Source of the DNA: Thelephora terrestris
Taxonomy: Eukaryota > Basidiomycota > Agaricomycetes > Thelephorales > Thelephoraceae
Assembly: GCA_015956445.1 (NCBI GenBank)
Contig: WIUZ02000003.1
Location: forward strand, 930,001 to 994,000
Length of the DNA: 64,000 nucleotides
Reading direction: 5' to 3'
Part shown: piece by piece, positions 30,761 through 57,909 of the stretch
How the letters are laid out: each line of letters opens with the position of its first letter
Numbering within the stretch: position 1 is the stretch's first letter
The notes under the pieces: generated by a model
Database searches by the model: none
What the model was told of the DNA's origin: nothing
What the model saw: only the letters and a program-made list of their open reading frames with translations
Made by a program: the position numbers and the translations under genes

Positions 30761-31440
30761 AGTCGGGACACGACCAGAATAGCAGAAGTGGGGGTGAGGG
30801 GTCGCCGGTTGTGCAGAGGTCGGGAAGGGGAGAGAAACTAGACAGAGGAGAGGAAACCACGGTAGGTCGCGACATTGTCGGGACGAGAGGGGAGAACTCC
30901 GTACTAGCAAACTCCTGCTAGACAATGACGATAGGCTAGGGGGCTAGTGGACGATGGGCTAGTAGGCTAGGGGACTATTGGAACTATGGGGCTAGTGGAA
31001 TCGATGTCAGAGTGAGGAGCTGGAGGTTTTCAATGATCAGGTCGTTCAGGCAGAAGGGAGAAGAGGTGTGAAGAGGCCCAGGGGTTTCTTGTTGGTTCAA
31101 CTAGCTAGTACAGGGTATTTATAGGTAAAGACAGTGCGATCTACGCAAAAGAGATGGGAAAAGTAGCGAACAAATGGAGAAATGGTGGGAAAATAAGAAC
31201 AGGTAGATAGAAGGGGATAAACGAGAGTCCGACGCAGGGTAGAGAGACAAACGATTCATCGGGAGGCCGGAACGAGGCTGGGACAGGTCTTACCGAGAGG
31301 ATGGAGCGATCGTGAGAAACAGAACTGAAAGGGGAAGTCTACGGGTTCGAGATCAAAAGATCGTAACCGGGCGGGAGAGCGGGAGCAGTCGAAGATGATT
31401 GGCGAGCGAGAGGGAACGAGTCGACACGTGTCTAGACTGA
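30760..31440 (-). mobile_element. Partial LTR E, minus orientation
   Basis: Pyrimidine-rich on the minus strand, with a TATAAATA promoter at 31,116-31,123. CCCGACA at 30,876-30,882 is followed at once by an ATG (30,875) opening a short Ser/Pro-rich frame (MSRPTVVSSPLSSFSPLPD). The far end is cut at 31,440 by the MITE that starts at 31,441, and the near end meets LTR G around 30,760. It is a truncated fossil of an LTR element of unclear family. Confidence 0.5.
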
Positions 31441-31861
31441 CACTGGGGACAAACCCCAGTTTCCCGGCCCGGGACATCGTAAATACATTGTAAGGAAATG
31501 GAAAATGTGCCTGGCAATGACCCACCTGGTACATCATAAATACATTCAAAATATCCAGGCCAATTTCCTTGGGGTGTTGCCAGCACAGGAAATGCTCAGT
31601 ACATTCACGGTGTTCCTGGTCATGTGATCTCAGTGTTCCCATTAGGTAATCCATGGGAACATCATGAATTTTCCCAAAGAAATACCCATGATGTCCCTGA
31701 GTGGCTCATTGAAAGAAAACCCTGAGTGAACCCACAGTTTCCCAGGTCATGTGACCTTGATGTCCTGATTAGGTAATCTGAGGGTAAACCATGAATTTTC
31801 CCAAAGAAAGTAACCATGGTGTTCCTGAGTGGCTCATTCACAGTGTTCTTTCCAGTGTTCC
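31441..31861. mobile_element. MITE C, split copy, outer left part
   Basis: Starts CACTGGGGACAAACCCCAG and follows the left arm of the complete copy at 61,658-62,856 for 421 bp, ending at CAGTGTTCC. The matching remainder resumes at 51,668 (GTTCCCAGTGG). The five bases GTTCC occur on both sides, so this copy was opened by one insertion now spanning 31,862-51,667. Confidence 0.9.
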
Positions 31862-33230
31862 TGTCACGAACGCGTGACATAGTAGCCCAAATCGCACAAA
31901 TAATCCAAGACATTGGTCTTATTGGCAAGAGTAAAAGTACAAGAGGAACTAGTAGATGTTACAAACTCAAACCAAGACAAAGGGATCTACATCACAAGCG
32001 CAATCTTGTGCAAACGGACAACGGTGCGCGAAGTGATGAGGGTTATGCACACTCTGAGGGCAGTACGAATATACTCGAGTCACTGGATCTACCCAGCACT
32101 CCCTGCATCCCAATACGTCATGAAAAGGCTCTCACAATAGCTGCAGCCCAAAAAATAGATTGATTCATGTCTGCAATCGTCACAACCTTTTTAAATGGTC
32201 ATGTACAATCTCACAAATAGATATATGGCCCGTTCTCCAGATAATATTTATAAATGTGGCCCTTCTGGCCTATCGTCCTACCCATTGTCTTGGACCAGTG
32301 GACCATTGTCTCGGACCAGTGGCCCACTATCTCGGACCAATACAAATGATGGTTTGATGGGATGGGCCCACTGTCTTGGGATAATCAGGATTACATCTGG
32401 GTGCCACAACCGTGTGAAATATCAATCACCTGCCTTGACTGGCCTTCTCTGTATATTCCCCTCCCATCAAAATATATCAGAGAATGACCAAGCGTGGGAA
32501 ATGACCCCTCAGCACCTGCTCCCTGGATATCCGTCCAAGCGGCCCCGCCACTTATGTTTCCCCATATGTTTTATTTAGCTTACATAATCAAAATTTATTT
32601 ACTGGTTCGGAACAGCTGGCCAAAAACAATCGAAAATTAAAACAATGTAAAAATACCACCCTATAGAAATAATCAATAGCAATTGATCCCGCTAAAAACC
32701 GTGCTAAACAGATGATAAACGAGTGAGAAATACTTGGTTTTTGCCCGGCTTGCATCAAGGACCGGATTGATCGGGTTTCCATTTTGGGAACAGGCGGCTT
32801 CCAGTTTCCTCGCAGCCGCCTTCCATAGAAGAGATTCGCAGACACTGTAGAATAGATTCATGGTACCCACCATATAATGCACATTGTTATTGCCATGCCA
32901 AACACGACCACGCCAAACGCGAACACAACAGGTGTGATATCGGGTTCAACGCGACGAACCCTTCCAAATAAGGCAGGTGTGAGCTTCTGGCCATGGTCAC
33001 GCCCATCACAACATGAGCGCTTGCCACTGGAAGGTCAAGTTGTACGAAACTCCCCTACCCAAGACACGACTCACCCATATTAGTCACTGCAACCCCCGTG
33101 TACTAGATGTAGAACTAAATGAAACATTTCCCCCAAACTTTCACATTCACTGGATCTCAAGGCATGTGCTTCACGTAGCGAACAGAGCAGAGTAGTTCAA
33201 TTCAAGACAGACACATTTCGAGCACATGAA
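31862..33230. other. Left part of the 19.8-kb unit, no gene recognised
   Basis: About 1.4 kb. It opens with the palindromic terminus TGTCACG-AACG-CGTGACA. Around 32,290-32,340 a ~23-bp word (CTCGGACCAGTGG and variants) occurs three times. The word ATTTATAAATGT near 32,247 recurs at about 49,590 at the other end of the unit. No coding sequence is convincing. Confidence 0.5.
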
Positions 33231-35945
33231 CTAGTTAGATAGCTTGGAAAGGACCCATGCAACATCCGCAGCAAAGAACTCAAAATCAGCGCGTAAGCCG
33301 TCCTCTGGCTTGCACTCTTCAAGTATTCTAATCCACCAATATGCAAGTATGACAACGTTGAGGAGACCATTAATGCGAGGAGAATAGAGAGCTTCCCATC
33401 CTCCCTTAACTTTGCGAGAAGTAGTGCTACGGCTAAACTTTCTCCAGGGGGGCTGGATGGAAGTCCACCATCCAAAGGCCGAGTCCACGAAGTTCGTGAA
33501 AGTCCGGCCACCTGTCGTGTAGTCAGGGATGCCGGCGGGGTGGGCTTTGGATGTCCATAGAGCAATCTCAATGGGTCGATTAGCGGTGGAAAGCGAACCG
33601 CCCATCTGGGATTTGTCGTTCATCTCGAAGCGGAGGTAGCGGAACAAGACTTGCTGGAAATGGGAATCCTCAACTTCTCCGAGGTACTTGAATATATTAA
33701 CTTGCCGCCTGCCTTTCCCATGGCGAATGAGGAAAGAAGGGACGTTCGCCTCATCGATGTCGCCTGACGACACCGGGGAGGAAGGGGAGTGGAGAGTGGT
33801 TTCTGTGGCAGTAGAAACCTTGACATTGGTTCCAGTAGGATCCCCAACGTTGGTCGTGGTATGGTTTATTGCGTTGGTCATAGTGGGAACTTCCGCGTCA
33901 GCCGTATTGGCATCTTTCACAGCAGACGCGATGGAATCGTCGGAGTTGATTGCAACCGGATCCTTGGCATTGATAGCGGTAGTGAACTCGATGCTGGTAG
34001 GAGCAAGATCCTTAATTGCCATGGTAACAAGGTCCCCAGTATCAGTAGGAACAGGGCCCTTGACACCGGCGTTGTGGGAAGCACCAGTTTTGATAACGAT
34101 GGGGTCTCCGGTCTCTGGGAGGGGGGTGACATCCGTGTCCATATCATCCCCGAATGCATCCGCAGAGCAGAGATCAGGAGAGCCAACAGGCGTGGTAACG
34201 GCAAGTGTGGTGATCCTCAAGTCACAATTGGGAGTTCTGGTAACCGGGTTGGCTGTGGACAATCCTCTCATCGTGGGGGCTGGAGAGGTTGGATCCAAGG
34301 CTACTCCCATGTCAGACGTTCGAGCAGAAGACCGGGTGGTGATCCGGGACACTCGCGGGCGTTTTGGGAGTGTTGGTATGTTGGGCAACGAGTCACCCGA
34401 TGACGACCCATCGCCACTATTATTGCCTGCATCATCACCCCTCGAGTCCTCAGAGCAGTGAACGGAGGGTGACACCTTCGGTGTGTACTTCCGCTTCTTG
34501 GAAGCTTCTGCTACTTTTGGCAACGGGGTTGGGCGTGGTCGAGATTTCACTTGACCACGGGTGGTCGTTTGTCGGATGCGAGCAGGAGTGCCGTTGGGGG
34601 GTGATGGGACGACAGCTATGTCGTTCGGGAGTGTGAGAGACGTGGAAACCTGGGGTCCTTTGACAGTGGACGAGGGGCTTTTTTCACCTGTGGCGCCCAA
34701 TAAATGATCTAGGGATGAGAAACGTAAGTCTATACATCTCATATCTCACCCAGCAATGCAACGTACTGGTATCACGTGCATATTTCAAGAACGGACCCGC
34801 TACTCCAGTATTAAACCCCCTCTCATCCCATTGAGTCCAATCACCAGTTGAAGAACGATCCCCGGGCCACCAATGAACCCTTTTCTGGGGCGTTAGCAAA
34901 CAAGTGGGCCAAAGGTAGTGAATCCGCACTCACGCAGTCAAAAATCCATCACTAGGGGAGTTATTGTTTCCGGTGTTTCCAGCGATGAGGGACACGTAGC
35001 AGCCAGCATAAGTGCCAATCGCCTGAAGAAGGGGGTAAACAGCGTCGAAGAGGGAGTCCCGAGCCCTACAGACGAAACATACATCAACAAGGTCAAGAAA
35101 CAGAAATAAGAACAAATACACATACTTGGCAACATCTTCCGCGGCAGAGATATCGTCTAGTATTAACTTCCACTCTTTCTCCCCAACAGCGTGCTCAGCC
35201 TTTGCCTTGGCCTCAAGTCCACTGATGAGGCCAACATTCTCCTCATAAAGCAATGTTTTCGCCACGCTGTGTTGAAAGTTCATCCGGTCGGCCTTGCTCA
35301 AGGCCTTTCCATCGCCATACTTGGTCGCGAAAGCAGTTTTCACCTCAGTGGGGTAATCCCGCATGAATTGCTGGACAGGAGTGCGCTGACGAGGATGGGT
35401 GTTCCGAATCTGGTGGAGTCGCTCGAGAAGCGGAGTCCAGGCAAGGTTGTCGCGGCGATTCCCGCTGTTTGCTGCCGAGGCGCGGTTTACATACCACTGC
35501 TTAACACGCTGAGCACAACTCTATCAGGATCGATCAGCACAGATGACAAACTGTCTGTACCGCCATGAGTCTCTTCTCAACAACCTCCTTCTCAGGAATC
35601 TCGCCGGATCCAACTGACTTGAGGTTCACCATTTCCACAGGGTCCGTTGGTGGCTCCTGGCTGTCGTCGAGCTTCCAGGGGTACTGTCGCCACCAGCTGC
35701 TGAACAAGCTGTGCCAGAAGTTCTGGCGGCTTCCTTTCTGGCTAGCGAGATAGGCTGGAAGGTTGTTCTCGAGCAAATCCCTCCGTGAACCCCGGAAGTA
35801 GCCTTTGGGACCCCTGCGCTGGGCAGAGGCATCATCTGATAAGTGGGTGAGCACGTTGGATTGCCGCAACGTCCGGTGAACTCTCACCTTTCTTTCCTAG
35901 GCCTGCATCAACCTCGTCAAGATTGCAGTTCTTGTCTTGAGACAT
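33231..35945 (-). CDS. Uncharacterised Agaricomycete-family protein
   Basis: Minus strand, from the ATG at 35,945 (MSQDKNCNLDEVDAG) to the stop at 33,231. Exons by eye include 35888-35945 and 35561-35835, several middle ones, and a long last exon near 33,231-34,710. The N-terminal part (YFRGSRRDLLENNLPAYLAS, then FWHSLFSSWWRQYPW) and a middle block (LSKADRMNFQHSVAKTLLYE) fit a large mushroom family I recall, with no known function. The central ~250 residues are low-complexity, Ser/Thr/Asp-rich, with basic patches (KKRKYTPK). The C-terminal block is conserved-looking: GGRTFTNFVDSAFGWW, GGWEALYSPRINGLLNVVIL, WVLSKL. It looks intact although it lies between transposons and inside the 19.8-kb unit. 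No catalytic motif is visible; a nuclear role is only suggested by basic and acidic patches. Confidence 0.72.
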
Positions 35946-36109
35946 GCTGGGACTTGGTGTACAGGAGAAGTCAAAGCGTGCAGCAAAAGAACCCTTCCGA
36001 TTTTATTTATATATTTTGCACATACGACTCCCGCCCTCGGCGGCCACCTGCGCATCGGCCTTGTTTGCCAATTACCAATTAGACTCCCGGCCCTTCTATT
36101 TGGTAACTC

Positions 36110-36880
36110 GTGACAGAGGTACAGTTGGCTTCGTCTGACCGCTCTTGAACCCAGTAGTGGAGGTCGTAGTTCGACGAGCAAGTGGTACTCTAATCTTTTT
36201 TCTGTAGTTTATCACCCCCTCGTTGTTGGAAAACAATCCCAGCAGGGCTTGCAAGCGGGCAATTCACAGCACGGCATTGCAACCTCCGTGTCGACCCTCC
36301 ATAGGATTCAATCGGGGCGCGCTAAGTTAGACTCCTGATTGCTTGGGTACAGCCAGCTTCGGCTACCCATGACAGGTGTGCATTTGGATCCATCCGACCG
36401 CTGTTACGGCCACTCCGGAAACCCAGTGGTGAGTTGTGGTTCGACACGTAGGTGGCCCTCTCATCTCTTTTCTGCATAGTTAGCTGCCACCTTGTTGTTG
36501 TTGGAAACAATCCCAGCAGGACTTGCAAGAGGGAATTTCTCAGCGCAGCGTTGCAATATCCGTGTCGTTCCTCTGTATGATTCATTCAGGGCGCTACATT
36601 AGAATCTGACCATTGCATGCAGACAGCTCCGGCTACCCATGACAGGGGTGCATTTGTCTCTGTCCGACCGCTTTTGAATCTGTGGTGGGCTGTGATACAA
36701 CGGGTAAGTGATCCTCGCATCTCTTTTCTGCATGATTGGCTAAGCCCTTGTCGTTGGAAAGCAGACCAAACAGGACTTGCAAACGGGCAAAATCTCAGTG
36801 CGACGTTACAACCTCCACGTCCACCTTCCATACGATTCGATCAGGACGCGGCGACGTGCTAAGACCTGTCTGATACGTAT
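36110..36880. repeat. Tandem array, three units of about 265 bp
   Basis: Units share, in order, CCGACCGCT, GTGG, a CATCTCTTTTCTGCAT-like word, GTTGTTGGAAA, AGCAGGACTTGCAA, GGGC/GGGAA, TTGCAACCTCCGTGTC and a GATTCATTCAGGG-like word. Equivalent points fall near 36,111, 36,371 and 36,641. Units differ at many positions, so the array is old. It lies between two host-like genes, upstream of the one starting at 37,163. No long frame runs through it. Confidence 0.8.
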
Positions 36881-37162
36881 CCACTTAGGTCTGGCCACCC
36901 CAACGGGCTCAAAACCCTTTGGCTGATCACATGGTCACTTGGAAACGCCGTCATAAAGCCTGCCCCAGTTACCACGGCGGGAGTGGCACCTTCTGCGAAC
37001 GCACATCCCTTTTCTTCCCTTTTTCTGATTGGACAAGCTGAATGGAATAAACTGACATGGACCGTGCACGAACTTGTCACGGTTTGCCCGTTATTTTGTT
37101 GTCGTGTGACTAATAGTATGCGATCCTCATAAATAGAGGGTTCCAAAGAATGTGTCACCAGT

Positions 37163-38457
37163 ATGGCTGGTAAAACTCGTTCCTTTGTTCTGCCCCTCGA
37201 GCAGATGTCGTCTTTCTCCCCACCGATCTCAGCAGTTTGTCCCCACCCCTTAGCTACTGGGAAGTTGAAGAGGCTCGAAGCTATCTCAATAGAGTCCTCC
37301 CCCACCAGTTCTTCACCACGCTTCTCCTTCACCCAGTCCAATGCATCCACTCCTGAGCCGGATCTTTTCGAGGAGTTCAATTACAGCGATGCCATGGATG
37401 GCGATCTCCACAGGATCGATACTACTGCCATTGCAATACTGGGAAATACCCAGCAGAACAATCCGGCTGTTGCGGAAGACGACGGAGCTCACCTCGATCC
37501 TGCGCCTCCCCAAAAGACGTGGGTCGTCTTTCATGGCAGGGGTCCAGGTGTCTATGAGGATTGGTATGGTGCTTTATTTCTTACGGAATGACCTACAGTG
37601 CTCACCCATTTATCCCAGGCAACCTGCAATACTTCAAACCCAATGCTTCCCCGACGCTTTTCAGAGAGCCTTTCCCAATCGCGGGGCCGCTGAAGCCGCT
37701 TGGCTCGCTTTCATGCGAGACGGAACATTCCCCGACTATGGTAGAAGCCCGTGGGTAGTTTACTTTGGGCGTCGGCCTGGAGTATTTACTAGAGTGTGAG
37801 TGCCGTTGATCGGTGGATGGTTAGCGTGCTTTACATCTAACACAATTCTCAAGCACCGAAATCGAAGGCTCCATCAAAAATTACACTGGTGCACTATACC
37901 AGTCTTGCTCCTCAATCACAGAGGGGAAAATTCGGCTCCAGCTTTTTGCTCAACGAGCTGCTCACATGTTCTGCGGGCGGGATCCATTTTCCAGCGTGGC
38001 AGATTTGATGTCTCTGTCAGACGATGGTGATGGCAACAGTGATGACGACGGCAACGGCGAACAGGAGATTGGCATGGCTGCGCGATCCTGCACCCCTGTT
38101 TTAGTAATGCCGACTATATCCTTGGCGCCCGAACCCGCAAATCCGTCAGGCCCAGCGTCAAACGATATTGCGGAGTCTTCGAAGTCCACTTCAGACCCCA
38201 AAGGCGCCGGATCTTCCCATCCCGGTGAAGGTTGGTATGTTGTCTATCACGGCGCTCTCCCGGGTGTATGCTTTGGGGTGTAAGTACATTGCTCTTTACA
38301 GATTCAATACCTCACTAAAACGTACCCCAGGGAAGCACTGAAGAACGCGGCACCGAAGCCAGGCGGCTTCTGGTGTGCGATTGACAAGGAATCGGCCGAT
38401 TTACTGTTTCTTAAGTTGTCTCTCGGCGGGGAGGTTGTCTGGGCAAAGGGCGGGTAG
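37163..38457 (+). CDS. Protein with three RNase H1 N-terminal (viroplasmin-like) domains
   Basis: Four exons: 37163-37563, 37619-37795, 37854-38279 and 38331-38457; all three GT-AG introns keep frame. Three copies of the hybrid-binding RNase H1 N-domain signature follow one another: WVVFHGRGPGVYEDW (about 37,520-37,563), WVVYFGRRPGVF (about 37,755-37,790) and WYVVYHGALPGVCFGV (about 38,235-38,279). Each is split by an intron right after the PGV(Y/F/C) motif, which implies domain duplication with its intron. The domain is about 40 residues and binds RNA/DNA hybrids or dsRNA in RNase H1. No RNase H catalytic domain follows, so a nucleic-acid-binding protein is inferred. An acidic Ser-rich linker (SDDGDGNSDDDGNG) precedes the third copy, which is the most divergent. 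The start is the first ATG of exon 1. Confidence 0.8.
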
Positions 38458-40219
38458 TAGGGAAGTCAACCTGTTCACCTAGTTTGCCGTATCTCCATGT
38501 GGTGTAAAATCAATGTCTTGTCACAATCATTACTACGTGTCTGCCCTGTCGCGTGACAGGATTCCCCATTATTTCATCTGTCGTCAATCCGATTGGCAAA
38601 TACAGTGAATTTAAGTCCTTGTTGGCGCTTTAGTTCGGCGTCCGTGCTAATTCAAAAGGCCTGACATATGGAAGGTCATATGCCCCACGCTATGGCATTG
38701 TCTGTACACTACTTCGATTGGTCCGTTGTTATGATACTTTTGTTTTAATTGTTGCACTCACGTTGAATGACCAGGTGGCTGTCCATAAGGCTACGCCGCG
38801 AATACATGGATAGACGTGTATGTCGGAAGCCCTTGAAAGTGTCGAGAAATATTCTTGGATACGCCTAGTCTTAGGAATTATCACCCGTTCTCTATGTGAT
38901 TTGTGATTATTAGACTTTTCATCTAATCTAGACATTCATTATCGTAGGCAATCTCCGCACGCTCACTATCTGATCCAGCACCAGTCAAGCCACGCCTGGC
39001 TACCAACGAGACAAATAGGTGATTGTGGTCAGAGGATTTTTTGTTGAGATGATCATCCCACTACTGCGAATGAGGATGGTTTCATGTGCGCTGGGTGCGG
39101 AGGTGACCGAAGTCATAAATTACGCTCCAGCGAGTTACCAATTGACACAAGGTTGTGGGCACGCCCAGAGCATTCTAGGAAAAATGTCGAAGAGAGAAAC
39201 GATGACATAGGAATTCAACAGGATCAGTCGCGTCCATTCGAGAGATCTCCAAGTGAACGATCTTACCCAATTCATGACCCTAGCGTGTGTTGGTCACGGT
39301 AATCAGTGAGTTCAGCTTGCAGGTAGCCAGCGTGAGCATCAGCCGTTGTTGTTGCTGCTCGTAGCCCTTAGTGAAGGGCTAGCCTTGGGCTTGAGCCTCG
39401 TAGATATGTATCCTTGTAAATCCCGCTGAGCCTGAAGTCAAATGTCACAATTGGCAATCAACGGCCTGCAAATCGTAGGATCAGAGCACCTTCTTGGCTC
39501 CCAGTCCCCTATCTTCTGTGCCTTGCAAGGGTTGAGTACCCTCACCGGCGTAAACGATACTGGAGGCAGAGGTATTATGCCCGCCATCGAGATTTGTTCC
39601 TCCCACCGCATTTCGTGCATTGTCTGACAACTTTCTAGCTCGATGAGATGAATACCAGGAACGAATCATACATCTGTTTTCGAAGGAAAGAAACAAAGAC
39701 ATTCTGCAAGACTCAGGCTTCCCACGTCACTTTCTCACACGGACACGCCTATTTGCCTCCAAAGCAAGCTTGCAACTGTCCTTGAGATCACAAATAAAGG
39801 ATCACAGTACGGGTTGCATTGCCCAGAGGTTCAACGAGGGTGAAGCAGTTGAAGACCATTGCGAGATGGGCGTAAACTACAAGGTGATGAAAATCGACTT
39901 GTGCAAAGGACAGAGAGATCCTAAACTCCAAAACACAGGGTGATGTAAAGGGGATGGGTGTCTTTGTGCGCAACTCGTCAGATTGGTCGGGAATATGTGT
40001 TGCGGCAAAGGCCTTTGGGACCACCCACCTAGAAAACATGTTCTAATGAAAGGATCTGTTGGATGCGCTTGGACAGATAAGTTGAACGGAAGGGAGGTTA
40101 GGATCCAGTTGTTATCGACACCGCCAATCAGAAGGTGCCACAGTCATCGATGATCAACGATCAGCCTCGGCGTCTTTAGCCAGCCCATCCCTTTCGCCAA
40201 CTCGGTCAAGTCCCTGAGG
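38458..40219. other. Intergenic, no gene recognised
   Basis: About 1.75 kb between the RNase H1-N-like gene and the KDZ gene. Short frames only, with no repeats or terminal inverted repeats that I could identify. It probably holds the upstream end of the KDZ element, but I could not define that end. Confidence 0.45.
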
Positions 40220-43200
40220 ATGGTGAGACGTAAGACAAAAACTCTAACAAAAATCGACCTCACTGCCCTCGAACCCAAGCCCGTTGTTCTTTCTCAACAT
40301 GCAGCTTCAAACGGAGCACGTGTAACCACGACCATCGACCCCGTTTGTCCACCTCCACTTCCCCCAGTTGACCCGCTCGCCTTCGACTTAGACCCAGCAC
40401 TCTTCGAGGAGGAACATCCTGAGGATGATGATTGCGAGGAAAAGGACTCCAGAGGGTACTATGTAGGCCGAGCGCACCCTCATGCATGTGTACCATTTCG
40501 ACTGACTCTTGTCAGGATAATCCGCTCCTTGTATGTGTCAGGAACATGGTATTTTTAAAAAATTTTATAACACGCTCTTTCTTCGAATTCTTCTTATCAC
40601 TTCTTATGTTTTGAACGCTTCACACTCCTTATCCTTCACACCATTTATTCAAAACACACAAAACGCGCATACATTCACGGCAATACGGAACAACATGGCT
40701 ATACTAATGCTTATACAACGTCCTCAAAAGTCGACTCTATCTACGGCAGGCCTGAAGGTCATCAACTGGTCATCTCGGAGATCGTAGTGTTGGCCTCTCC
40801 TCGCAAGGACCTCCCCGAACATGGCGTCACCGTCTTCGGCACTCAGCTGAACGACGAGCTCAAGTCGATAGGAAGAGATACCTTCGAGCGGACCGATCAG
40901 CCTCCCAGATGTCACCGAACTGCTGAACACCTGGTCCCACATCTCCATCACTGGGTGACTGCTCGACAGTACTGTCGACGTAGTCGACAAGCGACCCTCC
41001 GTCTCCCTCGTCGGACCCCTGGGTGGGATCCTGGATTGCGAGTCGACGCTGGTGGCGAAGCTGGATCTCCGACTCGACCTGTCGGTAGGGACGGTTGACC
41101 CGATAGCGGAACTCTCGTCCCCCACCTCGACCAGGCTGGTCACCATCCGACTCAACTGGACGAGGATAGGGATTAGCCGATGGAGCCATGCGATGAGCAG
41201 GACGGCGTCGAGAGCGTTTGCATCGTTGCCCCTTAGTCACCGGACGTACCTCGGCGACCCTCGGAGCATCTTCGGCTCGGTCAACCTCCATGACCTCATC
41301 CTCGATCTTCACCAACTGATGGATCGGCTGCAAGGCGCAGCACCCACAGTTCTCTTTGTCGGAAGCGGCCAAGGTGGAAGCCGGACCTGGAGTCGGAACG
41401 GGAACCGCGTTCTCGATCGGAGGCGTCGCATAGGACGACGGGTTAGGCGATGGGAGTACCACCTCGTCGGCGTACTCCAACTCGAACGGAACATCGGCTG
41501 TCCCCTGACCAACCAGTTTGGGACCCTCCTTACAGTTGCAGGTCTTGTCCTGCAAGGACTCGACCTGTGCTGTCAACACAGCCACTACGTTCTCGAGTTC
41601 TTCGGTCTAGGAAATGTCAGCTTCCATCATTCTAAGCAATGATGAAAGCGGCATTACCTTTTCATCCCTCCTGGCCAACGCCCCCTTAATGTTGTTATCC
41701 CTAACCTTCAACCCGGCGATCAACTCTTGATGGTTGGCGACCATTGCCTCCAACGCCTCGTTCGTCCCCTGCTGGAAGGATGCCAGAGTCTCCTTCATTT
41801 GAAGACCTTCTGCCGACAGACGAAGGACGTCTGCCTTTGCCTCCTTCACCTCGCGCTCCAATCGTTCAACCTAGGCAGTTTGATTAGTCGAGAGTCATAC
41901 TCGAATATTCAAACGGAGAACCTACCTTGCTCTCCCCCTCCCGAACGAGCGACCACAACAACGATGTGGCGGCAGTGGCATGGCGGACCGCCCGAGGAAC
42001 AGTCGCTCCGTGCTCCAACAGGTCCTGATCGTAGATTCCCCTCTGCAGGGTGTACCAGAGCTCCTTCTTGATCGGATGCTCCAGCTCCCCGAACCTACCC
42101 CTCATCCGGAAGGCCACTTTCTCGGCAATGATCGTTCGGACCCAAAGCTCATCATCCCAGGTCAACCCCATCAAGTGAGGCATCGTCTCTCTGAGACGTT
42201 CGGCGTCCACCTCCGTGACGACCTCCAAGATCTAGAAGACGTTAGTTTGACATCAACACCAAAAGAACGTTCCTCTACCTAGAGGAAGGCGTTAGTGCGA
42301 ACACACGAAGCTCTAGGTCTCCCCCATACCTGGTCATCCGTGGTATAGGGAGTCCCAGCCGCACAGGCGTAGGACTTGCGAGCGGCGGCACAACGGTCGA
42401 TACGAGAGATGGTGGAGATACCATTGGCGACTTGGTAGGTATGGTTGTTGGGGAAGGACATGTTTGGTAAGATGATGGGGAAGTTGCTGGTGTTGCTGAT
42501 CAAGGATGGCTCCAAGAAGACGTCCTTCTTATAGCTTAGATCAGTGATCCTTCACGTGACCTACCTCGACAAACCTCATTGGTCCGGGTCACATCAACTT
42601 CCGCCCCTGTACCATCATCGTCGGCTTACTACATCAAGCTGACACCTCGGCCCGCGGGACGGCCTTGGAAGAACTTCGTTCCGGAACGCCTAGAACGCGC
42701 GCGCACTAAAAATAGGTCTCAAGACCCTGATGACCCCTTTATGACATCACGAACCCCTTTTACGACCCCTCATGACTTTACGATTACGATCAACCCTGGA
42801 CCCTGATCACACACGTGGACAGTCACATCACAGTCTCCTAACCGGAGGAAGGACTCGCCGCTATTCGGAAGCATCGCCCTAGGATTTTTCCGGTTAGCCC
42901 AGCGCATGTGGAGTAGCCGTTAGCGTGAAACGCCGGCGAATCTGTAATCCCTCATGTCCCATGAGTCTAGGCCCGACCTCCTCATGTTCGGACGTACGTT
43001 GAGGTTGCCACCTGTCCGTGATGCTGTTACCGCCTACAGACAACAAGGGATGTTGAATGTCTCTACTCCCGAATCCAGCTGGCAGAGGCCATGTAAAGGG
43101 AGATTGACACCTGGCCCTTGGGTGAGATCCCCAGGTACGAACTTTCACGACCCCATGCTCCTATTTCCATTTGGACTAGTGTTATCTTTACCCCTATGTT

Positions 43201-46200
43201 TCATGCGGACATTCCTTATCTTTTATGCAATCCTTCACACGCTAGTAAGGCCCTTTGTCTTTTATTCTCCCACGCGTCACCTTTGTTCGCTTCCCTTACT
43301 TAGCGTTCTCACACTCCTTATCTCCCTTTGTTCTGGACTTGATAAGGGTATATTAGGGTATTGACGTCATGGCCACTCCTTTAGTATAAGTAGCAACTGT
43401 GGCTGTATCGTAGTACCTTAGTTTTGTTACCTCAGGAAATCCTCTGCCCTTCTCAGCCCAGTTGCAGTTAAGGACAAGTCAGAGTTTCTTGTTTGATCCA
43501 AGACATCCCCATCTGCTCTCCCTCCCGCTCTGCGCGTCAACTGCGCCTCGTAACTATAGACTCCCAGCAGTCATATTAGAACACCTCGAGCGTCCAGTCG
43601 ATCAACTGGTGGAGTCATCAATCCTGCTGTAGGGATCAACCCTTGCTTGTTAAACCGAACAAAGTACGGTTTAGGTTGGGTTTCTCTTTAGGATTTCGAC
43701 CTGACTTGTAGTGACCTCGGACAACCTACCGGAAGAATAGAGACGTGATCGTTCTCTCACAAGCTAGTTGGACTAGTGAGTACTCTGCGGAGTCGGCTCA
43801 GTGCACTGGTAGTAGTTGGGGTAGAGTGGCCCTGACAGAGTTAAAAATACCATGTTCCTGACAGTATGGAGGGATGACCGTGACCTGTTTCTTCAAGAGT
43901 TTATCCGGCTCGAAGGTCGGGGAGTCTTCACTGAGGACTGTTGCGAGCTCTGCCACAATAAAGGCGAGTTCCGTTGTATCGATTGTGTCGCGGTTCAGTT
44001 CCTCTGCGGAGGCTGTATCAGTCGAGTGCACTCGTTCAACCCTTTCCATACACTAGAGGTGCGTATCATTTGAGTCGTTTCACACCGTTCTGACCTTGGT
44101 CAAAGTAGAAGTGGACTGGCTCATATTTTCACCGGTCCTCGCTCCGGGAAGCTGGTCACGTCCTCCAACTTGGTCATCACCCCTCCGATCAGTGCACAAG
44201 TCCCCAGTGGAGCACCAAAACCTTCACCATCGTCCACATCAATGGAGTCCACCTCATAGACCTCGCATTCTGTGGATGTAACCATGCCGGTGACCATGGA
44301 ACTCGAGTTCAACAGCTCCTTCGTCGACGCCTCTTCCCCGCGACATCAACCGATCCACAAACCGCATGCACATTTCTATTACTCAAGTCTGCTCAGTTGC
44401 TGAGCCTTCAATCAAAGCTTTCACTGTACGACTACTACCTCGCCATAGAACAGCTAACGGACGCAACTGGCACAAGTAATGTGAATGTGTGTCACGCTTC
44501 TAACAATTTCAGGTTAACACGTCTAATATTTTCAAAGGTCCGGTATAAAGCATTCCTGCGATGCCTTCGTATGTGGCGCCACATCAGGATGGCGAAACGT
44601 GGTGGTCGGGCGTACGACCCAACAGGGATCCCAGGCACCTCACCAGGGGAACTCGCTGTCCTTTGCCCAGCTTGTCCCATCCCTTCTGTTAATCTACCTT
44701 CCAACTGGCGCTCAGTTGGAAAGGATCTCGAGTATGCTACACATCGAATCCTATCTTGTTGTTGCTAACACTGTCTATCACAGGTATTTATACTATCAGG
44801 CCTTTGGCATCGACACTTGTTTCCGGTTCAAAAGGAGGCAGGTTTCCAGCTATGAAAGGGATCCTGAACTGGGTCCTGGATTCGCGTACCTCGTTGCGTG
44901 GGACTCGTACAGCGAATACCTCCGGCGCTTCACTAACCAGCAAGAGGTTTGTTGTATCAGTCTCCAGGACCACAACCTTAACTAACATACTTGGTGAAAG
45001 ATGAGCACATGCAGCGGCCTCTCAGCCCTCGACCATGCCAATAGCAAATTCACGAGAGGATACGCAACGACTGGAATTGTGTGTACCACTTGCCGTCATG
45101 AATTCATCCTCCCAGAAGGGGCGGGACCCCTCCAAAAGGGCGAGCGGTTGGTATTCAGCCTTACCTCAGTTTTTTCTACCACTGATTCCTACTCACAGGT
45201 ATGCTAATACAGACTATGTGGTTGCTAGAAGCACATCTCACAACCCTGAAACAAAGAAGATCGCGTCCTACGATATAATGTGTCAATGGAGCATCAACCT
45301 TCGAGACCGCCTTAAGGGCATTCCCCTCGAAAACGCGGAGTCCCTCGATGATCAAATCATTGCCCGTGTTGTCCCCAAGTTTCATTTGGCCGCTCACAAG
45401 GAAGATTGTCGGATCAGTTTCTCCCTCAACTATGAGCCCGGTGTTGGGCGCAGCGATATGGAGGGGCCTGAAAGGACGTGGTTTGGCCTTCAAGGAGGAG
45501 GTTCAACAAAAGATCAGGGACCGGGCTATTGGAGCGATGCAATGGATGATAAATTTGGCCACTGGAACTGGCTAAAACTCGTCCGCCTTGGTGGGTTAAC
45601 TTTGTTTCTCCTTCTGCGCAATAACATAATTCCCCCTTTCAGGTACTCTCCTTGCAAAGAAGTACAGGAATGCCCTCACGCAATCCGTCACTCATACAGA
45701 TGAATTTACTGCCCTCTGCGTTGACATCCCTCTGGAGACTGTTGACTCGTGGACCAACAGGATTCTTGACTGGGAGAATGATCGGAGTCAGCCTAACCCA
45801 TACTTCAACCCATCTTCTGGTACGTCCAATGATGTATATCCTGTAGTCGCTTTTAACCCTGATTGACAGGTCCCTCGGAGCTGGAAATCCGTCGGCGTCT
45901 GACTTTAGAGGAGGAGAAGGACGAGGCTGCTTCTACTGTGGTCAACTCCATCAACGAAGTCACTGAAACTAAGTACCTCCTATATGGGTTGGAACTTGAG
46001 GATCGACAGTGTGTACTTCCCCAGCTCACATTGTGTTTGTGAAACTGATTGCACGCTAGATGCAAATTGAATGTTTTACTCGCATCAGCAACCTCGGACC
46101 TGCTTCCCACCTCAATTGTCGAACTTCGAACTACCTTCCGTCGCCGTCTACTCAGGTTTCGTCAACTACAGGTGCAATATCAGCCAGAAACTATCTCATT

Positions 46201-47163
46201 GCTCGCTCAACTGTCTCCCACTGGTGAAAACCCTGATTGTATCCATGAAACACCACTCCTCCTCCCGTCCTCCTTACCTCCTGGTACCTTGAAAGAATGC
46301 TCGAAACATCTGGTTTCGATGGAGAACCAGCTGCGGGTCGGTCAATGTCGTGACTCCCTTGTTCAACTACGCACGAAACTCACCGCTCAAGCGCGACTCC
46401 TCAAACACAAATACGTTCATGTACGCCACCAGGGTCCAAACACTCGATCCCAGAGCCTCCTCAACCGCAACATGAAGAAGATCCAGGCCATCAGTGCCAA
46501 ATACCGGCATGCATTCACGGCACTGCAGGTCCTTGATCCACATGACGGATCTGAGTGGCGTTCGGAGTTCCTTGAACTCCGAACACAAGATGTGCGGTAT
46601 TTTTCCGAGGTTGAGTTGCCCAACGCCCCGACCCAGGAACGTGCAGAAGAACTCCGGGCAAGGACTCTTCTCAACGGTGGTGCTATGCCTGAAGGAAACC
46701 GAACTATTTCTTGGATCTGGAGGGGCTCACTCAAGGACAATTCCGAGGATCAGGGTGAAGGTTAGTGGACGTTTTTCTACCACGTGTAATGTCGCTGATT
46801 ACTGCTGCAAACAGAGTTTCGACTGGAGTGGTCAAAAGCCTATGCACGAAGCGCCCGGTGGAACGAAGAGGTTCTGTTGCTCAGGGAAGAAATGAGGCGT
46901 GTCCTCGAGTTTTTAAAGTGGAGGTCGAAGGGTTGGCTTCAAAAAGGCGACATTGAGCTCATTTCCCCACTCTCAACCTGCCCTTTCCAGCTTGAGGGCC
47001 TCCGTGCTTATGCAGACAGGCAAGCACACATCTTCGGCGACCTTCACAACCACTTTTTAGGTATTTGGACAGGTCTCGAGCTACCTTGGCAGCACCTGAG
47101 TGAACCATTTTACCCCACTGATCTTTGTTTGGACGCCATGGAGCTAGATGGTGAAGATGTTTG
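40220..47163 (+). CDS. KDZ-type transposase with CxC2 cysteine cluster, interrupted by solo LTR B
   Basis: KDZ transposases move DNA transposons of mushroom fungi. The N-terminus (MVRRKTKTLTKIDL, then a Pro/Asp-rich stretch) lies at 40,220-40,535. The coding sequence is then cut by an LTR (40,536-43,863) and resumes with WRDDRDLFLQEFIRLEGRG. The CxC2 zinc cluster is CCELCHNKGEFRCIDC, then LCGGC and HSFNPFH (43,940-44,050). Later blocks follow the family order: YDYYLAIEQLTDATG, the first acidic site GIDTCFRFKRRQVSS (Asp near 44,812), ALDHANSKFTRGYATTG, LQKGERYANTDYV, SYDIMCQW, FHLAAHKEDC, SDMEGPERTW (Glu) and FGHWNWLKLVRLG. The C-terminal region is helical and ends ELDGEDV at 47,163. Apart from the LTR the gene looks largely intact, with short introns. 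I could not find its terminal inverted repeats. Confidence 0.85.
40536..43863 (+). mobile_element. Solo LTR B (about 3.3 kb) with antisense gene
   Basis: Starts TGTCAGGAACATGGTATTTT and ends with the inverse of that sequence. It is flanked by GTATG on both sides (40,531-40,535 and 43,864-43,868). Sense promoter signals (AGTATAAG near 43,383) lie about 450 bp from GGCCCTGACA, which ends at 43,837; a further 26 bp complete the right end. An antisense, apparently spliced gene fills much of it (40,724-42,461). No internal region of a retrotransposon is present. An inverse copy lies at 53,858-57,159, with roughly 90% protein-level similarity by eye. It sits inside the KDZ coding sequence and is younger than it. 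Confidence 0.8.
40724..42461 (-). CDS. Antisense coiled-coil protein gene inside LTR B
   Basis: Frame blocks on the minus strand, beginning MSFPNNHTYQVANG at 42,461 and separated by intron-like gaps. One block (41,884-42,228) has ERLRETMPHLMGLTWDDELW and ELEHPIKKELWYTLQ. The next (41,607-41,861) is coiled-coil-like (LEREVKEAKADVLRLSAEGL). Then comes a Pro-rich and basic part (GQRCKRSRRRPAHRM) with a short Cys cluster (CNCKEG, later CGCC). I do not recognise a known domain. The same order of blocks occurs in the inverse copy at 55,234-56,972. The design resembles the gene in LTR A: N-terminal head, coiled coil, acidic/basic tail. Confidence 0.58.
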
Positions 47164-47875
47164 ATGCTCAGATCCTACATTTTTGTGCCCTCACGACAGC
47201 CGCATGGCTCCCTCTTGTGTGCTCTCGCCTGACGTTGCGTCCTCATTAGTTGATTTTTGTTGCCCATTCTACCCCGCTGTACTTCGCGTTTCCATCGATA
47301 GCAATTAGACATGTCCTGCGTTTACGGCGTGACACGCGTTGAGAGTCTGTCGGGATTTCCCGCTTCATGACACAACTTCCATTCCCATGGTCCGAGCGAT
47401 TGAGCCGAAGGTTGCGCGTCATTGGGGATCAAGCTTCAAGCGCTGATTTCAGCCATTCTAATGTCATGCTGGTCTCGAGTGTAAGACAACATGACAACGT
47501 TACCCTTGCATGAGACCGGTGAACATAATCAAATAAATTAAACACGTGGGAATTGAAATGATATGAGTGCACACTAAAATTGTCCAAAAGGAAGGTGCGA
47601 TAAGAATGAAAGGTTCTGCTCTATTCGCAACGCTCGAGATGCCAAGTACGGGTGTGAAGCCTTGACAGCTGGTGTTAATCCATATCATACTGATGATGTT
47701 CTGTGGGTGGGTACCTACGTGAGATCTATGCGAAATTGCTTGCTGGTACTTAGAGAGGCATTTATCTATTCTAAGTGTTACCCAATAGGCTTGGCCTAGG
47801 GGCGGGTGATCAGGATATACCGAGGATTTTTGTGCCTGAGGTGAGCAACGTGAGATGTGAGTTGAATCAACTGGC
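47164..47875. other. Intergenic, no gene recognised
   Basis: About 700 bp between the KDZ stop and the 290-bp tandem array. Only short frames. It may contain the right end of the KDZ element, which I could not define. Confidence 0.45.
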
Positions 47876-49270
47876 TAGGGTGGCGTTAGAGAGGTAAATA
47901 CCTGTAATAAATACCCCTGAAAGGGCTTGCAGTGAAAAGCAAGCGATCAGGGGATATTGCAATTTTTTACCCAGGCCGGCTCGGGGTGAGCACCACGGGA
48001 ACACGGCAGAATGCAACGGGAAGGGTGGGATCTGAAAGAGATATGTGAGCATGTGAAACTTACCTAAGGAAAAAGGGCTGGACGCCAACCGTTGCGTGCT
48101 ATTCGCAACTTTTGGACAGCTATTCCGCAGGCTGGGTGGGTGAGATCTTCGTCAAACCGGATACCTGGGGTGGCGTTGGAGAGATGGATGACTGTAATAA
48201 ATACCCCCGAAAGGTCTTGCAGTGAAAAGCAAGTGATTGGGGGATATCACGATTTTTAACCCAGGTCAGCTCCGAGTGAGCACCATGGGAACAAGGTAAA
48301 ATGCAACAGGAAGGGTGGCGTTCGAAAGAGATATATGCGCATGTAAGACTCACCAGAGGAGAAAGGGCCAAACGCTGACCGCTGCTTGCTATTCGCAATT
48401 TTTGGACGGCTATTCCGCAGACTGGGTGGGTGAGATCTTCGTTAAACCGGATATCTGGGGTGTCGTTAGAGAGGTAAATACCTGTAATAAATGCCCCCAA
48501 AAGGGCTTGCAGTGAAAAGCAAGCGATCGGGGGATATCACAATTTTTAACCCAGGTCAGCTCCGAGTGAGCACCACAGGAACACGGCAGAATGCAACGGG
48601 AAGGGTGGGATCTGAAAGAGATATGTGAGCATGTGAAACTCACCAGAGGAGAAAGGGCCAAACGCTGACCGCTGCTTGCTATTCGCAATTTTTGGACGGC
48701 TATTCCGCAGACTGGGTGGGTAAGATCTTCGTCAAACCGGATACCTGGGGTGGCGTTGGAGAGATGGATGACTGTAATAAATACCCCCGAAAGGGCTTGC
48801 AGTGAAAAGCAAGCGATCAGGGGATATCGCAATTTTTCACCCAGGTCAGCTCCGAGTGAGCACCACGGGAACAGGGCGAAGATCAGCGGGAAGAGTGGGA
48901 TTCAAAAGGAATAGGTGCGCATATAAGACTCACCAAAGGGGAAAGGGCCGGATGCCGACCACCGCTTGCTATTCGCAATTTTTGTATGGCTATTCCGCAG
49001 ACTGGGTAAGTGAGATCTTTGTCAAATCGAATGCCTGGGGTGGCGTTAGAGAGGTAAATACCTGTAATAAACACCCCCGAAAGGGCCTGCAGTAAAAAGC
49101 AAGCGATCGGGGGATATCGCGATTTTTCACCCAGGTCAGCTCGGGGCGAGCACCACGGGAACAGGGAAAAATCGGGTGGGAAGAGTGGTGTTTGAAAGAG
49201 AAACATGAGGTATACAAACCTCCGAAAGAAGGAACGGTCGGAAAGCAGCGGTCGCGTGCGGTCAACAATT
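47876..49270. repeat. Tandem array, five units of 290 bp
   Basis: The word TGTAATAAA recurs near 47,903, 48,193, 48,483, 48,773 and 49,063, giving a period of 290 bp. Each unit contains a hairpin: a CCCC(C/T)GA arm, then CTTGC-AGTGAAAA-GCAAG, then TC(A/G)GGGG. In unit 1 both sides of one pair change together (CTGA with TCAG), while other units are mixed. Other shared words are ACCCAGGTCAGCTC, GAGCACCA and GCTATTCCGCAG. 290 is not a multiple of 3, so no protein repeat is maintained although minus-strand frames happen to be open. Confidence 0.88.
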
Positions 49271-49621
49271 TTCCGCTGCTGGTGTCCTGGGGGATGTCAG
49301 CAAAACCTAGAATAACGGGGATGGAAAAGGTAAGAGATGGAGCCCATGACGTCTGTGGTTAATATATCCAAATATCGCCTGGCCAAACGTGGCCTACAAC
49401 GAGCAATGAAGGTTTGTTTGAGGCCCCGAGGGAATGGGCCAGCTGCCCGATCAGGAAGAGGAATCAACCGTGGGAATTCTACCTTAACTTTGGTTCAGTG
49501 ATGGGTTGATGGCCCAAACACTTGGAACCAAGGACAATTATATTTATCAATGCATATCTACAGCATAAATAGAATTGTGGACTCAATCAAGGGAATTTAT
49601 AAATGTAGGTTTGGTTAATTA

Positions 49622-50403
49622 CATGAAATTTATAAAGACTGGGCTGCAGCTGCTGGCTCTCATGCATCTCTCGCTTCACGTCCGACAAGGCCTCGCTCAC
49701 TAATGCGAACCCATACCGGTCTTGGAGACCCGCCACTTCCACCTTCAACTTCATCCGTACTTGCCGTGACTTGTCGGAGGGACGACAACGTTGACCAGAA
49801 CGAGTCATCGGACTCTTGCGGGTCTTCTTCCTCTGGGACCTCTCCACCATCTGGCGAACTGGGGCAGGACTCCAGGGAGGGGATGGAGGGAGAGGAACGC
49901 CCTGATCCTGGCGGTGGCGAAGGGATGACTGGGGACTTGCAAGGGGGGTCGGTGCAATAAGCCCCGCGACATTGGTGTCCGAAATATCAGAAGAGAGATG
50001 CCTGGAAAGGACCCCAATGTTCCAAAGCAAAGTGAGAGAAATCCTCGTTCAAGCTGTTCATGATGACGTACATGAGGTCCACACGCTTCTCCAATTTCGC
50101 AATCCTATCCTCCCTCTCCCTCTCCATCCTATCCAACAGAAGGACGGCTCCGGGATGCTTAGCTTCAGGGAGAGACATAGAAGACCTGATATCTTCATAT
50201 CCAGCTTGCTCCCAGAATTCGGTAGGAGCGTTGTGGGCGGTGAGGAAGTCGATAGCGACCTGGTTGTCATGAGCGATGTTGGCGGGAGTATCGTACAAGT
50301 GTTGCTCCACGTCGTAGGGAGCATCCGTCTCAAAGGACGGGGTGAAATCAAAGGGGGTGGCAACAGCGTTGAGCACGGCGTTGTTGGCAACAAAGGCAGA
50401 CAT
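49622..50403 (-). CDS. Antisense gene inside LTR D
   Basis: The first block (49,987-50,403) encodes about 138 residues, with an acidic head (YDVEQHLYDTPANIAHDNQ) and a short coiled-coil-like stretch (DRMEREREDRIAKLEKRVDL). A second block to about 49,622 is basic and Ser/Pro-rich (RSQRKKTRKSPMTRSG), then helical (KLKVEVAGLQDRYGFALVSE). The sequence is unlike those in LTRs A and B, but layout and position match: antisense, in U3, own TATA-like box. Confidence 0.5.
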
Positions 50404-51023
50404 AGTAGTAAAAGATGTGAGAGAAGGGAGTAGTAGTGGTGATTGTGGGAAGGGAAAAGAGACGATGAGAGGAAAAGACCAATAATTCCCCGGATTATAT
50501 ACGACTGACTCAATAAGATACCCGAAAGGGAAGACAATGAATCGTTATCCATTCAAACCCTGATTAGGATAAACGAACCCTCAACCCCAATCACGATCCC
50601 ATCAAATCCAGAGAAATCCCCATCGATCACGAGAAATCCCCATCACGCTTCTATTACCACCATGAAACGAGAGAAATCCCCACCGATCAAGAGAAATCCC
50701 CATCAGACTCCTAAATAACTCACTCGCTATTGTTCCCCTATTTCGTACTCGATATCGGTTGTTCTAAGTTCCACTTCTCTGACTCATTTATCCTACCCTA
50801 AAGTACGCACAGACCATGTTGACCTTGTTTGGTTCGATGTAGAATTATGACTCCTGTAGAGGATTGGGTATATAAGGAAGAGTGTTCGCTCCTTTCTTTT
50901 CCCCACTCTCAATCTCTTCTGTACTCCTCTACCCACAACTTGAATAAACAAAGTAAGCTGAGGAATTCTCCTCACGTCTTATTCTTTCCTAACTCATTCT
51001 AGCAGGAATCCTCCTGCCAGTGT

Positions 51024-51647
51024 ATGTTCAGCGCCCCCAACCCTTTCCCCTCTACTAGTCCAGTTCAAAGACCCGTCATTCCCGACGCCAGAAGGTCTAT
51101 CTGGGAGTATAAGCTCATCAGAAGCCTTCAAGTAAACCGAACCGCCGGCTTACTTACTCATTTCCCCTACTACCGACCCTTCGCAGCCCTCGACGCCGGA
51201 GTCACCACTCCCCCCTTTCTATTAGGAGCCGATCATCAGTTCCTTTGGAACTCTGACTTTACTGAAAGTGTCCTAGCGACTGTCTATTTCAGTATAAGTC
51301 CAGCCTTCTACTTCCCCAATCCTCACGTTCATCTCACCACTAACGTCCACACCCATTCCCCTGCTATTATTGTTCTTTGGTGGGAAATACCAGCTGAACT
51401 ACCTTATTCGGTTATAGAATATCTCGTTAACTTCGAACGCCTTAGCGATCAAGACTTCGAACCGTTTGTACAGCAACTAACTCAGTTCTGTCAGGATTAT
51501 CACTCGCCCGTCCACCCCTATCAAACAGAGTCTCCACTCTCGCTTGATACTCCTCCTCCCCTCACTTCCACACCCGGTACACCCTTCAAGACCCGACCCG
51601 ACACCCCTCACCCATCCGCTAATCCTCTAGCGCCCCACAAACAGTAA
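51024..51647 (+). CDS. Sense 207-residue frame next to LTR D promoter
   Basis: An open frame starting about 150 bp downstream of the LTR D TATA box. Residues: Pro-rich N-terminus, then WEYKLIRSLQVNRTAGLLTH, VLATVYFSISPAFYFPNPHV, LPYSVIEYLVNFERLSDQDF and a Pro/Thr-rich tail. It has no motif I know. Its position suggests the beginning of an element's own coding region or an LTR-internal gene. It ends 20 bp before the CCTGACA terminus. Confidence 0.5.
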   Translation: MFSAPNPFPSTSPVQRPVIPDARRSIWEYKLIRSLQVNRTAGLLTHFPYYRPFAALDAGVTTPPFLLGADHQFLWNSDFTESVLATVYFSISPAFYFPNPHVHLTTNVHTHSPAIIVLWWEIPAELPYSVIEYLVNFERLSDQDFEPFVQQLTQFCQDYHSPVHPYQTESPLSLDTPPPLTSTPGTPFKTRPDTPHPSANPLAPHKQ

Positions 51648-51667
51648 GCAGGCCCACAACCCTGACA

Positions 51668-52477
51668 GTTCCCAGTGGTGTGATCACAGTGTTCTGAGTC
51701 AGTAAAATTCAAATTGAGCCTTAACAGTGCGCCGGAAGTGTACCAGTGTGGTATATCCTGAAAGTACTAAGGCCTTCGACCATGATGTACCAAAATTTGG
51801 CAAACCATCAGGAAACTGTGGGAACACTGGGAGGAAACTGGGGACACTGGGAACATCATAAACGCATTCAAAATGTTCCCAGTGTCCCCAGTTTCCTTTC
51901 AGTGTTCCCACAGTTTCCTGATGGTTTGCCAAATTTTGGTACATCATGGTCGAAGGCCTTAGTACTTTCAGGATATACCACACTGGTACACTTCCTGCGC
52001 ACTGTTAAGGCTCAATTTGAATTTTACTGACTCGGAACACTGTAATCACACCACTGGGAACACTGGAAAGAACACTGTGAATGAGCCACTCAGGAACACC
52101 ATGGTTACTTTCTTTGGGAAAATTCATGGTTTACCCTCAGATTACCTAATCAGGACATCAAGGTCACATGACCTGGGAAACTGTGGGTTCACTCAGGGTT
52201 TTCTTTCAATGAGCCACTCAGGGACATCATGGATATTTCTTTGGGAAAATTCATGATGTTCCCATGGATTACCTAATGGGAACACTGAGACCACATGACC
52301 AGGAACACCAAGAATGTACTGAGCATTTCCTGTGCTGGCAACACTCTAAGGAAACTGGCCTGGACATTTTGAATGTATTTATGATGTACCAGGTGGGTTA
52401 TTGCCAGGTACATTTTCCATTTCCTTACAATGTATTTACAATGTCCTGGGCCGGGAAACTGGGGTTTGTCCCCAGTG
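51668..52477. mobile_element. MITE C, split copy, remaining part
   Basis: Resumes the MITE consensus at GTTCCCAGTGG, runs through the centre of the palindrome (near 51,880) and the complete right arm, and ends CCCCAGTG at 52,477. It complements 31,441-31,861, and together they make one element of about 1.2 kb. The next base begins the Plavaka-type fragment. The outer flanks (TGA left, TCC right) do not form a target duplication, so one flank has been rearranged. Confidence 0.88.
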
Positions 52478-56800: not shown

Positions 56801-57159
56801 TCGGTCCGCTCGAAGGCATCTCTTCCTATCGGCTTGAACTAGTCGTTCAGCTGAGTGCCGAGGATGGTGACGCCATGTTCGGGGAGGTCCTTGCGAGGAG
56901 GGGCCAACACTACGATCTCTGGGATGGACGCTTGATGACCATGAGGCCTGCCGTAGATAGAGTTGATTTCTGATGGGACGTTGATAGCACTTTGTATAGC
57001 CAGTAGTTCCGTATTGCCGTGAATGTATGCGCGTTTGTGTGTTTTGAATGATGGGTGTGAAGGATAAGGAGTGGGAAGCATTCAAAACATAAGAAATGGT
57101 AAGAAGAGTTCGAAGAAAGAGCGTGTTATAAAAAGTTTAAAAATACCATGTTCCTGACA
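53858..57159 (-). mobile_element. LTR B, second copy, inverse orientation
   Basis: On the minus strand it starts TGTCAGGAACATGGTATTTT (57,159) and ends GAGTGGCCCTGACA (53,858). It lacks the extra 26 bp seen at the right end of the first copy. The flanks (GATTT left, GGAGC right) are not a duplication, so one side has been rearranged. It carries the same antisense gene (plus strand, 55,234-56,972). It truncates the Plavaka-type transposase. Confidence 0.8.
55234..56972 (+). CDS. Antisense coiled-coil protein gene inside second LTR B
   Basis: Begins MSFPNNHTYKVANGISTI at 55,234, about 70 bp downstream of a CTATAAGA box. The blocks match those in the first copy: ERLRETIPHLMGLTWDDELW, LEREVKEAKADVLCLSAESL and GQRCKRSRRRVAHRM. 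Conservation of the blocks and of intron-like gaps between the two copies suggests this was a real gene of the element family. Confidence 0.58.
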
Positions 57160-57909
57160 GGAGCCCTTCCAGGCTGGTACATCGTGACGCCATGACGTAT
57201 GGGGACTCAGTGTGTCAGGCCGACGCGACCTCTACAGTTCAATAGCACTCTTGCTATCCAAACCTATCACACACAGGGGTCAAACACACAGTTATAATCC
57301 TGTTGCAAACCCAGGGATATCGGAAGTCTCTTCACAGACTAGATTGGAGAGAAGGAGAAAGAAGGAGACAAGGGTCTTCAGATACTCTTGCTCTAAGCAC
57401 ACAGCAGTAGAGGTCACGGAGAGTCTGATGATAACAAATCTAAGGAGTACAGGCCAAACTACTCTGAGTATATATACTACTTAGATTTGTGATGTGACAG
57501 TGACATGTAACTACACTAATGATACAAACACAGACAAACATGGTCCGTGCACAGCACTGCATAGTCTGTGCGTTTCGTGGTGACTAATGCTACAAATTAT
57601 CAGCTGATAAACGAAAGTGTGGCGGCCAATAGCAATTTGAGAGCATTACAAAGCATTTACAAAGCATGACGTATCGTGAGAATGTTCGGAATGAATGTGG
57701 GTATGGCTGACTAACAACCAATGGCAAAAGGGGAGCATATGACTAAGAAATAGGGGCATATGATGTCATGTGGGTCATGCGCAGTAAACAATAGAAAAGA
57801 TGACTCAACTCCTGAATCGTGGAAGGGGCGTGGCATTTGGTATATAACCAAAGGGGGTTGGATGACTGGGTCTCTCAACAAACCTCCCTTTGTTATTCAC
57901 ACAGCCAAC

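Follow-up and report, generated by a model that had tools for sequence, protein, structure and literature searches.

The question raised by this locus is how a 19.8-kb block that includes two host-like genes came to lie inside a palindromic miniature inverted-repeat transposable element (MITE) of the basidiomycete Thelephora terrestris. The stretch of DNA that we analyzed, called the window here, is 64 kb long (positions 930,001 to 994,000 of the forward strand of contig WIUZ02000003.1, GenBank assembly GCA_015956445.1). It contains two copies of this long MITE, one whole (M2; 61658-62856, flanked by a 3-bp duplication, GAA) and one split (M1), both of which start with CACTGGGG and finish with CCCCAGTG. 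M1 is broken at 31861/51668 by a block of 19,806 bp, with its left part at 31441-31861 and its right part at 51668-52477. As the original prediction stated, the block starts with TGTCACG (from 31862) and ends with CCTGACA (up to 51667), and the five bases GTTCC are present at both junctions (31857-31861 and 51668-51672). Two origins had been offered for it: a long terminal repeat (LTR) insertion that was later expanded by a gene-carrying element, or one large cargo-carrying mobile unit. Our reading of the sequence, which we hold to be very probably correct, is that the block consists of nested insertions: a small element (E1) in the MITE, then a 17.5-kb gene-carrying KDZ transposon, and then a third element (B).

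The outermost footprint was evaluated by comparing MITE arms. Joining the flanks of the block yields CCAGTGTTCCCAGTGG, and GTTCC occurs only once at the insertion site in all three uninterrupted arms (both arms of M2 and the right arm of M1), matching CCAGTGTTCCCAGTGG; the possibility that MITE copies normally carry GTTCC twice at this site is thus not borne out. Since GTTCC is common within the MITE (five occurrences per M2 arm), we counted this aligned comparison alone as evidence. When the outer 421 bp of the four arms were aligned, 16 columns were variable: three were M1-specific (both M1 arms share a state that neither M2 arm has), 12 were singletons and one was complex, and no column paired the arms in any way other than M1 together. 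In the inner part of the MITE, 38 columns vary, of which 13 separate M1 from M2 and one groups the arms crosswise; this part is uninformative about the left half of M1, because both inner M1 arms lie to the right of the block. The private variants common to the M1 arms assign both halves to one MITE copy. On this comparison, we regard M1 as a single copy and the block as flanked by a true 5-bp target duplication. Self-comparison of the block ends found no long direct repeat between them, in agreement with the original prediction.

To what extent the block is one unit depends on what lies within it. A gene at 40220-47164 (plus strand; modelled over its earlier exons) is interrupted by B and encodes a transposase with a CxC2 domain (44112-44768, E = 1.6e-36) followed by a KDZ transposase domain (PF18758; 45005-45700, E = 8.1e-29), which places it in the KDZ superfamily. 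These and the other Pfam results reported for the block come from 22 of the 52 open reading frames (ORFs) of at least 100 amino acids listed for 31000-52600, plus one spliced product (that of gene 2, below). We searched for the ends of the corresponding transposon in the interval that runs from the KDZ gene out to the E1 ends on each side, scoring each candidate pair by the number of bases alike among its 20 terminal bases, with one end inverted. The interval holds 12 pairs that combine a 7-bp duplication with CA..TG ends. One of them, flanked by GCTCTCA (32128-32134 and 49656-49662), scored 14 of 20, and the other 11 scored at most 9. The terminal bases of this pair are CAATAGCTGCAGCCCA and, inverted, CAGCAGCTGCAGCCCA. 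With the ends left free, it still ranks first among the 2,523 interval pairs that have a 7-bp duplication (runner-up, 13). None of 400 simulated intervals attained 14 of 20 for CA..TG ends, while 9 of 20,000 random CA..TG pairs attained the alignment score of the real ends; multiplied by the 12 candidates, the latter frequency gives, by our own product, about half a percent. The GCTCTCA pair most likely marks the ends of a KDZ DNA transposon of 17,521 bp (32135-49655, plus strand), bounded by CA..TG and an imperfect 16-nt inverted repeat.

The two non-transposase genes and the two tandem arrays of the original prediction are indeed present in the block, and all fall between these putative ends. 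Gene 1 (33231-35896, minus strand) was delineated from ORFs and has several exons by eye; no Pfam family was found in its ORFs that were tested, and it may belong to one of the large unnamed families of the Agaricomycetes. The KDZ/CxC2 gene and the small introns likewise point to a host in that class. Gene 2 (37394-38457, plus strand) has three introns and a predicted product of 299 amino acids, in which two stretches match the ribonuclease H1 N-terminal (Cauli_VI) domain (E = 1.6e-13). Its intron borders were picked by hand from the reading frames and then checked, and its start codon is uncertain. Taken singly, the exons gave only weak matches to the same domain, and a Pfam search of the three plus-strand frames of 31862-41862 read straight through returned no family, gene 2 included. 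Comparison of the gene 2 product to solved structures gave one weak match (E = 0.015), to an uncharacterized protein. Relatives of two proteins in viral contigs were sought and none was confirmed, and a literature search on viroplasmin did not return the term among the matches listed. One array has about three units of 260 bp (36148-36849); the other, close to the right end of the transposon, has five units of 290 bp (47850-49309). Their best mutual matches are 11 and 16 bases at E = 0.44, and a common origin of the two was rejected.

Element B (40536-43863, minus strand; 3,328 bp) has TG..CA ends, a perfect 23-bp terminal inverted repeat and a flanking 5-bp duplication, GTATG. The original prediction had placed other LTRs in the block, and B displays the ends and duplication expected of one, but no LTR pair. 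B interrupts coding sequence of the KDZ transposase gene, within an exon: the joined flanks keep the frame, and the exon frame read into B meets a stop 76 bp inside. Because of this position, no intact transposase is expected from this copy unless B is spliced out, and the copy is probably unable to move itself. A second copy of B in the window, Zb (53858-57159), is 92% identical and lacks the right-hand 26 bp of B (43838-43863), the last 23 of which are the inverted copy of its other end. A 248-amino acid ORF in B (40860-41606, minus strand) has a counterpart in Zb (56091-56837, plus strand). Of the changes between the two, about 44 are synonymous and 30 non-synonymous, a ratio of non-synonymous to synonymous rates (dN/dS) of 0.195, which indicates that the B-type ORF is, or was, a protein under selection. 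No Pfam family was assigned to it.

What remains outside the KDZ ends is E1: 273 bp on the left (31862-32134, beginning TGTCACG) and 2,005 bp on the right (49663-51667, ending CCTGACA), or 2,278 bp in total with TG..CA ends. We oriented it on the minus strand after its minus-strand ORFs (49987-50544 and 49587-50048), which overlap in different frames and appear coiled-coil by eye; the second crosses the border between E1 and the KDZ transposon. A plus-strand ORF lies at 51003-51647, and its predicted structure has a mean predicted local distance difference test score (pLDDT) of 34. None of the three E1 ORFs tested matched a Pfam family above its curated cut-off, including reverse transcriptase and integrase. 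Two LTR-type features are present in E1, the TG..CA ends and the 5-bp duplication, and a direct LTR pair was not found. Calling the outer layer an 'LTR element' would draw on these two features. TG..CA ends with a 5-bp duplication are the mark of a retroviral-type integrase. A neighboring element, A (22923-25316; 2,394 bp), has TGT..TGACA ends and the duplication GTATG. The plan shared by E1, A and B suggests that the three moved alike.

These observations can be assembled into a sequence of four layers, whose order (M1, E1, KDZ transposon, B) follows from each inner element lying wholly within the outer one. The palindromic MITE M1 would already have been present. The 2.28-kb E1 would then have entered its left arm through a 5-bp staggered cut that duplicated GTTCC. 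A Kyakuja-like KDZ transposon would have followed, inserting near the left end of E1 through a 7-bp staggered cut that duplicated GCTCTCA; it would have carried in the CxC2/KDZ gene and, most likely, gene 1, gene 2 and both tandem arrays. Finally, the insertion of B into a coding exon of the transposase gene would have duplicated GTATG. Both the footprints and the way they are nested can be observed directly in the sequence, and from duplication length and end sequence we infer the cutting enzymes.

Several observations weigh against this nest or parts of it. When the interval limit was lifted and the whole window considered, 7 of 60 simulated windows attained 14 of 20, and the 12-base core of the match between the KDZ ends includes a palindrome. 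E1 and the KDZ element are each represented by one copy, from which alone the two inner empty sites are reconstructed. The frame across the E1 join stays open for only 12 codons, which does not discriminate. One of 628 interval pairs with an 8-bp duplication and any ends (33385/48645) also scores 14 of 20. This pair has T..A ends, and its boundaries fall inside gene 1 (last exon) at the start and inside a unit of a tandem array at the finish; on these grounds it is probably a chance match. Only a single interval pair combines an 8-bp duplication with CA..TG ends, and with 5 of 20 bases alike it was discarded. Two features of M1 speak against its being one copy. Its left half resembles M2 (98.3% identity) slightly more than its own right arm (97.2%), because eight of the 12 singletons sit in that right arm. 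Moreover, M1 lacks a 3-bp duplication (TGA at 31438-31440 versus TCC at 52478-52480), compared to GAA/GAA in M2. Both features count in favor of another origin for the split, through an assembly join or the union of separate MITE copies. We find this hardly credible, given an exact 5-bp duplication at one base of the MITE and three variant columns that only the M1 arms have in common.

A single 19.8-kb cargo unit, bounded by TGTCA/TGACA and inserted into the MITE in one piece by a Starship-like logic, would likewise present one outer footprint, TG..CA ends and genes within. The outer footprint by itself is the basis of this option. Since the inner KDZ footprint accounts for 32135-49655, and encloses every gene, a unit of this size is not needed, and we rejected it on finding the 7-bp duplication. 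The remainder outside the KDZ transposon (2,278 bp) is also near the size of the neighboring TG..CA element A, and Pfam recognized no other mobility enzyme among the ORFs tested (22 of 52, plus spliced gene 2). We regard the single unit as highly improbable; of the two origins first proposed, the first, in which a gene-carrying element later enlarged an LTR-like insertion, is the one that fits. Another view is that the KDZ element is smaller or has other ends, such as the 8-bp pair of equal end similarity, and that the host-like genes or the left array arrived separately within E1. Genes 1 and 2 do lie to the left of the transposase gene, and their travel with it is seen in no second KDZ copy. 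However, both genes lie between the ends of the top-scoring 7-bp pair, whose CA..TG termini are those anticipated for Kyakuja (no footprint search around the genes alone was made), and we think this arrangement unlikely. Much closer to an even chance, and only slightly short of it, is the view that E1 is a solo LTR, belonging to an LTR retrotransposon, and not an element of its own kind. TG..CA ends with a 5-bp duplication are the usual product of a retroviral-type integrase, A and B follow the same plan as E1, and a solo LTR would show the same lack of an LTR pair, reverse transcriptase and integrase. Conversely, the E1 ORFs lie on opposite strands, the B ORF has been under purifying selection relative to Zb, which is unusual for an LTR, B has its 23-bp inverted repeat, and no full-length element was seen in the 64-kb window. 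A literature search for ORFs inside LTRs returned no papers. This proposal renames the second layer and leaves the nest unchanged, so that its probability and that of the nested reading are not exclusive.

Together, the results indicate a real footprint with what is most likely a largely ordinary cause, a series of nested insertions of which the largest is a gene-carrying KDZ transposon. What appeared to be a 19.8-kb cargo unit resolves into its layers once the inner footprint is found. Exact ends can now be proposed for the KDZ element, which makes copies with and without the two genes searchable in fungal genomes, and TG..CA elements that have ORFs but no recognized enzyme merit study of their own. 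A bolder, and in our estimate doubtful, combination of claims would have the KDZ transposons of mushrooms serve as gene vehicles beyond TET/JBP (here for gene 2 and gene 1) and, in addition, make E1, A and B a separate class: TG..CA units of 2 to 3 kb with 5-bp duplications, each coding for a protein under selection (coiled-coil by eye) and relying on a borrowed integrase.

Elsewhere in the window, A and B, which are different TG..CA elements, carry the identical 5-bp duplication, GTATG. A copy of B at 92% identity and one of A at about 90% adjoin at 53858-59734 in opposite orientation with 53 bp between them, and lack matching duplications; BLAST of A and B against these copies under other settings gave no matches. 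Homology of the A and B ORFs was rejected (proteins, E = 0.56; DNA, a single 20-base match as the best result, E = 0.002), as was a derivation of A and B from the splitting of a single element, since both have ends and a duplication of their own. Fifteen bases found at the end of B-type elements, TGTCAGGGCCACTCT, recur at 29374. ORFs at 25394-26810 (minus strand) and 52516-53922 (plus strand) resemble pieces of a Plavaka-type transposase; Pfam gave no family for the four of these ORFs that were searched.

By its ends and duplication, the transposon resembles Kyakuja among known systems. Solo LTRs have TG..CA ends, a 5-bp duplication and no partner repeat; E1, A and B differ from them in holding ORFs, that of B under purifying selection. 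Starships are likewise gene-carrying mobile units of fungi, but they are described from Pezizomycotina and are classed by a tyrosine recombinase, none of which was found among the 22 of 52 ORFs tested here. In passages from one paper found by a search on cargo of fungal KDZ transposases, 'cargo' appears once, for transposable elements generally, and we do not claim that gene-carrying KDZ elements have gone unreported. The KDZ1, KDZ2 and KDZ3 elements of Cryptococcus neoformans are KDZ transposons as well, are about 9 to 11 kb long and have been shown to move; they differ in having inverted repeats of 139 to 241 bp, a CxC1 domain and duplications of 8 bp (KDZ1) or 4 to 8 bp (KDZ2 and KDZ3) (PMC12810828). 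Kyakuja DNA transposons occur in Agaricomycetes (for example, Kyakuja-1_LB and -2_LB of Laccaria bicolor), and are described as having 7-bp duplications and CA..TG ends without an inverted repeat; Zisupton and the sole described Dileera element have 8-bp duplications (PMC12730594). The present element shares with Kyakuja a KDZ transposase, CA..TG ends, a gene beyond the transposase and, given these ends, a 7-bp duplication. Whereas the published elements have a TET/JBP gene and lack inverted repeats (PMC12730594), ours has other genes, no TET/JBP domain among the ORFs tested, and a short imperfect inverted repeat, the last a further point against the nested reading. The CA..TG ends and the 7-bp duplication length are compatible with cutting by a Kyakuja transposase. 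Lastly, all intact KDZ genes of Pleurotus ostreatus are reported to have CxC2 ahead of the KDZ core (PMC7641404), the same order as in the present gene.

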